NCBI RefSeq assembly: GCF_039555755.1
Contig: NZ_CP154631.1
Coordinates: 3,844,001-3,908,000, forward strand
Length of the DNA stretch: 64,000 nucleotides
Reading direction: 5' to 3'
DNA from: Pseudomonas sediminis
GTDB lineage: Bacteria; Pseudomonadota; Gammaproteobacteria; Pseudomonadales; Pseudomonadaceae
The position numbers and the translations under genes are program-made. Shown in pieces: positions 24,824 through 26,806 of the stretch. The notes under the pieces were generated by a model. That model did not search any database. It was given only the letters and a program-made list of their open reading frames with translations, and was not told the DNA's origin. How positions within the stretch are numbered: position 1 is the first letter of the stretch; the number at the start of each line of letters is the position of its first letter.

Positions 24824-25402
24824 TCAACTACCGAGCATGTCGTGCATGGCGATGATCTGTTCGGCCACCTGGATCAGCTTCTGCTGGCGACTCATCGCCT
24901 GGCGGCGCATCAGGGTATAGGCCTCTTCCTCGTTGCAGCTCTTCATCTTCATCAGCAGGCCCTTGGCCAGTTCCACACGTTTGCGTTCGGCCAACTGGGC
25001 ATCGCGCGCCTGGAGCTGAGCGCGTAGTGCCTGGTCGCTCTCGAAGCGGGCCATGGCGACGTCGAGGATCGGTTGCAGGCGCTGGGCGTGAATGCCCTCG
25101 ACGATATAGGCGCTGACGCCGCTCTGGATCGCCTGGCGCATCACGCCGGGGTCGTGCTCGTCGGTGAACATCACGATCGGCCGTGGCTGATCGCGGCTGA
25201 CCAGTACCACCTGCTCCATCACGTCGCGGCCGGGGGATTCGGTGTCGATCAGGATGACGTCAGGGCGTACCGCCTCGACCCGCTCAGGTAGGTCGATGGT
25301 CAGGCCGGATTCGTCGATCACCTCGAAACCCGCTTCGATCAGGGCGCATTTCAGGCGACCGACTTTCTTCGGGGTGTCGTTGATCAGAAGGATACGCAGC
25401 AT
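24824..25402 (-). CDS. nasT: NasT, ANTAR-domain RNA-binding antiterminator
   Basis: This 192-residue protein has an N-terminal receiver-like domain (MLRILLINDTPKK, with DVILIDTES at the phosphoacceptor position) and a C-terminal ANTAR domain (about residues 125-185: RKRVELAKGLLMKM and EEAYTLMRRQAMSRQQ). NasT binds paired hexaloop RNA hairpins and prevents termination in leaders of nitrate-assimilation genes; NasS holds it inactive until nitrate or nitrite binds. I chose ATG 25402 with GGGAG upstream, not an upstream TTG. It follows nasS by 18 bp. Confidence 0.93.
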   Translation of the reverse strand: MLRILLINDTPKKVGRLKCALIEAGFEVIDESGLTIDLPERVEAVRPDVILIDTESPGRDVMEQVVLVSRDQPRPIVMFTDEHDPGVMRQAIQSGVSAYIVEGIHAQRLQPILDVAMARFESDQALRAQLQARDAQLAERKRVELAKGLLMKMKSCNEEEAYTLMRRQAMSRQQKLIQVAEQIIAMHDMLGS

Positions 25403-25420: not shown

Positions 25421-26632
25421 TTACAGGGCGACAGCCGGGCTATCGGCCAGGGCATGGAGGCGGAAGCTGCGCGCGTAGGCGGCCGGGTCGCTGCCGTCCC
25501 AGCACGTGCCGTCCTGCAGGATGGAGCTACGCATTTCCCCCGGCACCGGTATGCCCAGCGTCGACGCGGCCTCGCGGTACAGTGCAAGTTGTTGGACCTG
25601 GCGGGCCACCCCCAGGTAGTCGGGATCGCTACGCAACAGGCCCCAGCGGCGGAACTGAGTCATGAACCACATGGCGTCGGACAGATAGGGATGGTTGACC
25701 AGCCCGCCGGCATGAAAGCGCAGCGGATGCTCGTCCTGCCAGGCATGGCCGAGGCCGTCCTGATAGTGGCCGAGAAAACGCGGGGTGATCGCCGAAACCG
25801 GTGCGTTGACGTAGTCGCTACCGCTGAGCAGCAGGGCGGTGCTGCGTTTGTTTTCTTCGCTCTCGTCGATGAAGCGTGCCGCGTCTAGCACCGCCATGAT
25901 CAGGGCGCGAGCGGTATTGGGGTTCTGCTCGGCGAAGGCGCGGGTACAGCCCAGCACCTTTTCCGGGTGATCCGGCCAGATCGCCTGAATGGTGGTGACG
26001 GTGCAGCCGAGCTGTTCATCGACGGCCTTGGCGGTCCAGGGTTCGCCAACGCAGAAACCATCGATGCGCTTGGCCTCCAGGTGCTCGACCATCTGCGGCG
26101 GCGGCACCACCACGCTGTCGACGTCGCGCAGTGGATGAATGCCCTGGCTGGCCAGCCAGTAGTAAAGCCACATCGCGTGGGTGCCGGTGGGAAAGGTCTG
26201 GGCGAAGGTTAGGCGTGCTTCATGCTGGTGCACGTATTGGCGCAGTGCTTCGCCGCTGGTCACGCCAGCGGCTTGCAGGGTGTGCGACAGGTTGATGCTC
26301 TGGCCGTTCTGGTTCAGCCCCATGAGCACGGCCATGTCGGTGGCCGCGGCGCCGCCAAGGCCCAGCTGCACGCCATAGATCAGCCCATACAGGCTGTGGG
26401 CGGCGTCCAGCTCGCCGCTGAGCAGGCGGTCGCGCGAGCTGGCCCAGGAGGTCTGACGTTGCAGTCTGAGGCTCAGCCCGTACTTCTCGGCAAAGCCCTG
26501 AGTCGCGGCGACGATCACCGAAGCCGAATCGCTCAGCGCCATGAAGCCGATGTTCAGCATGCTCTTCTCCGGGGCGTCGCTACCCCAGGCCCAGGCCAGG
26601 GCATCGTCGCGCGGGGTGTCGTGTTCGCTCAT
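25421..26632 (-). CDS. nasS: NasS, cytosolic nitrate/nitrite sensor
   Basis: This 403-residue protein of the NrtA/CmpA nitrate-binding family lacks a signal peptide, which distinguishes the regulatory NasS from transporter binding proteins. The core starts MLNIGFMALSDSASVIVAA and includes MGLNQNGQSINLSH and DGFCVGEPW, as expected for the ligand pocket. NasS sequesters NasT and releases it when nitrate or nitrite is bound. It has AAGGAAG before ATG 26632. The leader carries a sigma-54 promoter, two ANTAR-type hairpins and an attenuator-like hairpin. Confidence 0.92.
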   Translation of the reverse strand: MSEHDTPRDDALAWAWGSDAPEKSMLNIGFMALSDSASVIVAATQGFAEKYGLSLRLQRQTSWASSRDRLLSGELDAAHSLYGLIYGVQLGLGGAAATDMAVLMGLNQNGQSINLSHTLQAAGVTSGEALRQYVHQHEARLTFAQTFPTGTHAMWLYYWLASQGIHPLRDVDSVVVPPPQMVEHLEAKRIDGFCVGEPWTAKAVDEQLGCTVTTIQAIWPDHPEKVLGCTRAFAEQNPNTARALIMAVLDAARFIDESEENKRSTALLLSGSDYVNAPVSAITPRFLGHYQDGLGHAWQDEHPLRFHAGGLVNHPYLSDAMWFMTQFRRWGLLRSDPDYLGVARQVQQLALYREAASTLGIPVPGEMRSSILQDGTCWDGSDPAAYARSFRLHALADSPAVAL

Positions 26633-26653
26633 GCTGCTTCCTTACCTTCACGC

Positions 26654-26695
26654 AAAAAGACGTTGATTCATGGGCGGCTGCCCATAAAAAACGTC
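26654..26695 (-). terminator. Attenuator-like terminator in the nasS leader
   Basis: On the minus strand GACGTT (26695-26690) pairs with AACGTC (26664-26659), and ATGGGC (26685-26680) pairs with GCCCAT (26675-26670). TTTTT follows at 26658-26654. It ends 21 nt before the nasS ATG, so it would stop transcription in the leader unless prevented. Confidence 0.6.
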
Positions 26696-26728
26696 GTACC
26701 AGATCCAGGCGCGAGAGATCCGGGATTC

Positions 26729-26773
26729 GATACGACGCCGTTGTCGATCAAGCCATTCCGCCATTGGAACGGC
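26729..26773 (-). promoter_or_regulatory. Two hexaloop hairpins of ANTAR-target type in the nasS leader
   Basis: Hairpin P1: GCCGTTCC (26773-26766), loop AATGGC, GGAATGGC (26759-26752). After 2 nt, hairpin P2: GATCGAC (26749-26743), loop AACGGC, GTCG then ATC with one bulge (26736-26729). Both hexaloops have A at position 1 and G at position 4, the ANTAR recognition signature. They begin about 7 nt after the predicted transcription start. Confidence 0.65.
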
Positions 26774-26790
26774 TGTATACGAAGTGACGA

Positions 26791-26806
26791 AGCAAGGCAT
26801 ATGCCA
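26791..26806 (-). promoter_or_regulatory. Sigma-54 promoter of nasST
   Basis: On the minus strand, TGGCATATGCCTTGCT matches TGGCACR-N4-TTGCW at 15 of 16 positions with GG-N10-GC spacing. The predicted start is near 26780, giving a leader of about 148 nt before nasS. Confidence 0.7.

Follow-up and report, generated by a model that had tools for sequence, protein, structure and literature searches.

Organization and promoter of the nasS–nasT locus

The window analysed here is a stretch of 64,000 nucleotides from Pseudomonas sediminis, in which nasS (positions 25421–26632; NMT1_2 match, 298.8 bits) and, directly behind it, nasT (24824–25402; Receiver match, 30.8 bits, and ANTAR match, 59.6 bits) are both encoded on the minus strand. 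Judging from its homologues, NasS is presumably a nitrate/nitrite sensor holding NasT, and NasT is an ANTAR RNA-binding antiterminator. The likely ATG of nasT lies at 25402, with GGGAGAG ahead of it, and is separated from the nasS stop codon by 18 bases. The leader, on the same strand, lies between acnB (29551–26924) and nasS (26632–25421), and an alanine-transaminase-type gene lies downstream of nasT; no nitrate reductase or transporter was found among the nine neighbouring proteins scanned. The NasT of the window is the single ANTAR match (PF03861) in its own genome (4.6 Mb). Among the named NasS proteins of the collection, from which the window's own record was possibly excluded, that of Pseudomonas chengduensis is the closest (93%). 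The segment WVAGSDAPEK in the N-termini of NasS proteins (26632–26570 in the window) resembles WAAGSDAPEK, which follows the Tat signal of NrtA encoded elsewhere in the genome (locus L078). NasS has no Tat motif, in contrast to NrtA, and in a midpoint-rooted tree from a quick search the NasS and NrtA proteins of Pseudomonadaceae are sister groups (SH-aLRT, 92), as if the sensor had been derived from the binding protein of the transporter.

Sigma-54 promoters carry a GG-N10-GC core in a sequence near TGGCAY-N5-TTGCW. The element TGGCATATGCCTTGCT (26791–26806, minus strand), read directly from the sequence, fits this core and pattern, and the -24/-12 element that the first-pass annotation had placed at 26806–26791 is indeed present. 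By the usual promoter-to-start spacing, the transcript is predicted to start near 26780. The best match to an NtrC consensus in 115 upstream regions was no better than those in mononucleotide-shuffled sequences. Sigma-54 promoters have already been predicted for genes of ANTAR proteins including NasT (PMC12316311), lower nasS and nasT transcripts have been reported for an ntrC mutant of Pseudomonas stutzeri (PMC8443478), and the nasTS promoter of Paracoccus denitrificans is reported to be similar in that transcription of the same regulator pair is nitrogen-regulated (PMC5424462).

Hairpins and predicted terminators of the nasS leader

Two hairpins, P1 (26752–26773, minus strand; 8–9 bp; hexaloop AATGGC) and P2 (core, 26733–26746, minus strand; 4 bp contiguous in the window; hexaloop AACGGC), fold at the sites where they had been claimed, and both loops have A at the first and G at the fourth position (A1/G4). 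The 3' arm of P2 also contributes to the 5' arm of an intrinsic terminator, T1 (26686–26738, minus strand), in which CGTCGTA (26737–26731) is paired with TACGACG (26698–26692), followed by U6 (26691–26686). P2 and T1 compete for the same bases and are mutually exclusive. The single hairpin of 26738–26686 has a folding energy of −22.3 kcal/mol (z-score, −4.05; equalled by none of 200 shuffles). Taken as far as the U-tract, the leader folds into P1 and T1 (−37.7 kcal/mol; z-score, −3.26). The first-pass annotation had noted the complementarity of CGTCGTA and TACGACG, which is exact, and had assigned TACGACG to the 5' arm of a later terminator; it is instead the 3' arm of the T1 stem, with U6 directly after it. 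The attenuator, assigned there to 26695–26654, was accordingly misplaced, the conserved and covarying terminator being that of 26738–26686.

Conservation was assessed in an alignment of 44 divergent leaders chosen to be less than about 80% alike (45 were picked, and L163, in which the T-run was wrongly set, was dropped). The A1/G4 signature, whose conservation in relatives had been proposed as a check, is nearly invariant, with A1 in 43 and G4 in 42 of the 44 P1 loops and both in all 44 P2 loops; P1 also covaries, two-sided changes occurring at six of its eight pairs. In P2, the GAC/GTC core is kept in 43 or 44 of the 44 leaders, and only these three pairs are general, the fourth failing in 34 of 44. 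P1 and P2 together are paired in 78.5% of cells, with 63 two-sided cells against 27.0 ± 5.0 in shuffles and a covariation score of 0.238 against 0.099, while 137 of 500 shuffles had at least as many pairs with a two-sided change. The pairs of T1 are formed in 90.2% of cells. Two-sided changes in T1 number 43, compared with 16.2 ± 3.4 in shuffles, and its covariation score is 0.379 against 0.242 (0 of 500 shuffles as high); 120 of 500 shuffles had at least as many T1 pairs with a two-sided change. Because the shuffle test is inflated by kinship among the sequences, slid registers provide the stronger control, and the T1 pairing beats all of them, every slide scoring far lower.

A further structure, T2 (26654–26695, minus strand), comprises a two-part hairpin (26695–26659) and U5 (26658–26654), and excludes T1. 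The earlier description of this element stands as far as the hairpin itself is concerned, which is strong (−20.6 kcal/mol; z-score, −4.93), but not as to its being the conserved attenuator. Among the loci read past the U-tract (L039–L068 and L229–L233), T2 was seen only in the window genome and in G064, a genome of the same species, where it is weaker, having a shorter outer stem of 4 bp. In the ensemble of the full-length leader, T1 is present at about 0.40, and P2 and T2 at about 0.60.

Distribution of the leader and its relatives

Of 149 genomes of the genus, 131 gave a NasS match and 127 a NasS locus; four loci with only an NrtA-type protein (L188–L191) were excluded from the nasS counts. 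With R1, a covariance model of P1 and T1 built from the 44 aligned leaders, the leader was located immediately ahead of nasS in 94 of the 127 loci (44 of the 94 constituting the R1 seed), and 33 loci are without it. A first search by regular expression, giving 84 of 124 loci, had missed the leaders in L127, L164, L175, and L187, which R1 and visual inspection recovered. Elsewhere in the family, 18 of the 25 fetched loci (L309, L339–L353, and L355–L363) carry the leader ahead of nasS; it is present in six of the eight genus codes and absent from two. These counts support the claimed NasT-type target ahead of nasS–nasT. Of the 80 named loci nearest the query, 68 carry the leader at E ≤ 0.001, including those of P. 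chengduensis, P. yangonensis, P. protegens, P. chlororaphis, and P. koreensis, and 12 lack it, including those of P. putida 31303, P. inefficax, P. vlassakiae, and P. huaxiensis.

In a FastTree phylogeny of NasS with 151 rows, leader presence requires eight changes, compared with a mean of 35.4 after shuffling (no value as low in 500 shuffles). In this tree, 21 leaderless rows form one clade, which appears to hold the named P. putida, P. inefficax, and P. huaxiensis loci (L154, L169, and L176). The leader was likely ancestral and probably later lost, on a root set by one long outgroup row. The P. putida group seems to be without the nasS leader, and nasT of P. putida is reported to be up 7.25-fold in nitrogen limitation (PMC7801951). 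In each of the 33 leaderless loci of the genus, R1 matches at another place in the fetched stretch; judging by the coordinates, this is mostly behind nasT. Locus L187 (G034) was excluded from the tree on account of its split nasS; its nasS match falls into two overlapping pieces, suggestive of a frameshift, and the leader ahead of it appears intact.

The promoter was traced with a looser pattern, GGCA[ACT]N5TTGC, which is found upstream of nasS in all 94 leader-bearing loci and in 29 of the 33 leaderless loci, compared with 0.5% of mononucleotide-shuffled upstream stretches. The distance from this pattern to the start of the NasS match is 113–194 bases in leader-bearing loci, with two outliers of 267 and 387, and 53–128 bases in leaderless loci. 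Promoter and leader are separable units. P2 and the terminator are lost in L129 and retained in its tree neighbours L110 and L124, and L097 has degraded remnants of the leader; in these two loci, as in L125 and L142, the nasS attenuator seems to have been deleted naturally or to have decayed, and the sigma-54 element is retained. In four other loci (L165, L170, L178, and L180), nasS lies close behind a stretch that looks coding, and both the sigma-54 element and the leader are missing, which suggests that nasS was captured by another operon.

Two further leaders were found in the genome of the window (L078; G000:C1:3998000-4016800). One (about 4013930–4013810, minus strand; R1, 36.9 bits, E = 1e-8) precedes genes for a Tat-type NrtA and then NrtB. 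The other (about 4009000–4008840, minus strand) precedes nirB; missed by R1, which counts against our main reading, it was read from the DNA, the cue being a weak match to the Rfam family RF03032 (16 bits, E = 3.05) of a strength also met in 13 of 14 control genomes. Both have a sigma-54 element, two A1/G4 hexaloop hairpins, and a terminator using the 3' arm of P2.

Class-wide, R1 matched in 55 of 369 genomes. The downstream genes of the 29 matches examined, among the 62 listed, encode an NrtA-type protein in 20 cases, NarK in four, NirB in three (one, L217, assigned by contig coordinates), and NasC in one, the last gene giving no query match; 28 of the 29 matches thus stand ahead of nitrate-assimilation genes. 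None of these 29 precedes nasS, the regulator-linked copy having been seen only in Pseudomonadaceae. The contiguous pairs of P2 number three in 72 of 84 nasS leaders, four in all 30 nasA leaders (a biased set, consisting of the best Rfam hits), and at least four in 26 of 28 class-wide leaders. R1, itself trained on nasS leaders, gives about 37–57 bits to nasA leaders and about 17–42 bits to Pseudomonas nrtA leaders. Inheritance of the nasS leader from nrtA, considered in view of the sisterhood of NasS and NrtA, is mildly disfavoured by this ranking of nasA above nrtA leaders.

Proposed regulatory mechanism and its place in the NasT regulon

NasT, NasR, EutV, and AmiR reportedly act through two-hairpin antitermination leaders, such as those of Azotobacter vinelandii nasAB and Pseudomonas aeruginosa nirBD. 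The nasS leader is like these in having two A1/G4 hexaloop hairpins, a P2 lying over the 5' arm of the terminator, and an ANTAR protein encoded in the genome, but differs in standing ahead of the regulator operon nasS–nasT and in a P2 often of three pairs. As in the amiR system, the ANTAR regulator is encoded downstream of its own target leader, although amiR is located inside an enzyme operon, whereas here the leader heads the regulator operon. It is, in short, a known kind of leader in an unexpected place. The window also agrees with the ANTAR two-hairpin RNA as described in PMC3369931, with stems of at least 3 bp, a short linker, A1/G4 loops, an ANTAR protein in the genome, and a terminator overlapping P2, which is the published arrangement. 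Since P2 and T1 exclude each other, binding of NasT is predicted to antiterminate, following the usual ANTAR logic.

In Paracoccus, the NasS–NasT complex is reported to dissociate on nitrate or nitrite (PMC3795266). In the proposed mechanism, transcription of nasS–nasT would start near 26780 from the sigma-54 promoter. Without nitrate, NasS would hold NasT, the nascent RNA would fold into P1 and T1, and most transcripts would end near 26686. With nitrate or nitrite, the released NasT would bind the hexaloops of P1 and P2 and stabilize P2, which would take part of the T1 5' arm and block T1, so that the polymerase could read into nasS–nasT. NasS and NasT would thereby be produced together on induction, in parallel with the genes behind the leaders of nrtA and nirB in this genome. 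Because a NasT-type target stands ahead of nasS–nasT and NasT is the sole ANTAR match, autoregulation, as claimed in the first-pass annotation, is the natural reading.

The presence of the elements, the mutual exclusion of P2 and T1, and their covariation and distribution are established here. We infer NasT binding, termination, and induction at this leader, and put the probability that it is a NasT antitermination leader conferring nitrate-gated positive autoregulation of nasS–nasT, with normal ANTAR polarity, at roughly 80%. This level was set in view of a counter-example from Bradyrhizobium, where NasT hairpins are predicted in the narK and bjgb leaders and narK-bjgb-flp is reported to be higher in a nasT mutant (PMC6759348); hairpins alone therefore do not prove activation. 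Counted against the proposed mechanism as well are the three contiguous pairs of P2 in most nasS leaders, which equal the published minimum; the missing leader in 33 of 127 loci of the genus; the shuffles that reach the number of changed pairs (137 and 120 of 500); the NtrC-like site search, which gave nothing above shuffles; and T2, which in the window strain could offset readthrough. A nasT-lacZ fusion in Paracoccus denitrificans was hardly nitrate-responsive (11 000 with glutamate, 15 000 with glutamate and nitrate), and no comparable loop is apparent there from the expression values of that report (PMC5424462). A literature search, which was incomplete and does not prove absence, recognized no printed nasS leader or nasST autoregulation.

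Alternatively, the sigma-54 promoter might be what matters, with T1 acting as a fixed, unregulated attenuator that keeps NasS–NasT low and with P1 and P2 as inherited relics. A P2 weaker than that of the nasA leaders would fit such an arrangement, as would the loss of the leader in 33 of 127 loci with the promoter mostly retained. The hexaloop signature and the P2 core, however, are nearly invariant though mostly needless for a terminator, and P1 covaries though no part of T1; we therefore regard a fixed attenuator as unlikely.

Less probable still is the inverted logic of the first-pass annotation, by which a stabilized P2 frees TACGACG, T2 then terminates, and NasT represses nasST. The pairing supposed to release the terminator is in fact the conserved terminator T1, so that a stabilized P2 prevents termination. 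It is true that T2 is strong and excludes T1, that P2 and T2 prevail slightly in the full-length fold, and that a negative effect of NasT is reported at a hairpin-bearing leader in Bradyrhizobium (PMC6759348). T1, however, is conserved, covarying, transcribed and met first, whereas T2 is absent from the relatives read and weaker in G064, and at most acts on transcripts already past T1. Repression by NasT was thus rejected as the main reading, with T2 leaving a small remainder: as T2 uses the TACGACG arm freed by P2, it could bring a partial inversion confined to the species of the window. If T2 terminates, it would limit the response rather than reverse it.

As to antitermination by NasT, the regulator leader may be tuned apart from its targets, a tentative proposal of low probability. 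The weaker P2 of most nasS leaders suggests that the autoregulatory copy may need a higher level of free NasT than the target leaders, so that transport and reductase genes might respond first and the regulator operon only later, giving a delayed and possibly bistable positive feedback; in the species of the window, where P2 has four pairs, T2 might serve as a NasT-exposed second terminator capping the loop.

The leader also bears on the Rfam family RF03032 (narK RNA). A covariance-model search gave a match to this family at 26805–26732 (minus strand; 42.5 bits, E = 4.5e-5 in 25 kb), which narrowly misses the gathering score of 43.2. Of the 149 genomes of the genus, 129 match the family, 124 of them above the cut-off, the window genome (G000) falling below it. 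The family consensus opens with GGCaCAgcucUUGCU, a -24/-12 element that Rfam shows as unpaired RNA. At the end of the consensus stands ACGACAAAGACGUCGC, a P2 whose loop has the A1/G4 signature, although Rfam draws one hairpin only. By the usual spacing, about 25 of the 72 positions would be promoter and hence untranscribed. The 30 best hits in the genus (L009–L038) all overlap an R1 match, with an offset of about 20 bases, and all have a 4-bp P2 with an A1/G4 loop. The window matches RF03032 end to end, while the Rfam model includes the promoter and omits P2 and the terminator. RF03032 appears to combine a sigma-54 promoter with a NasT two-hairpin target; that it represents a distinct RNA, ligand-binding or of some other unknown kind, with an incidental ANTAR likeness, as the 42.5 bits of the window and the single drawn hairpin might suggest, is hardly credible, given the promoter element and A1/G4-loop P2 at its ends and the uniform overlap of the 30 best hits with R1. 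Our literature search, without proving absence, recognized no paper naming narK RNA.

Such a reinterpretation would correct the boundaries, structure, and function of this family. The nasS–nasT pair itself joins the predicted NasT regulon of Pseudomonas, as a predicted positive-feedback loop working through RNA antitermination, and the leaderless clade with its P. putida-type loci, the promoter being mostly retained where the leader is missing, provides a natural experiment.
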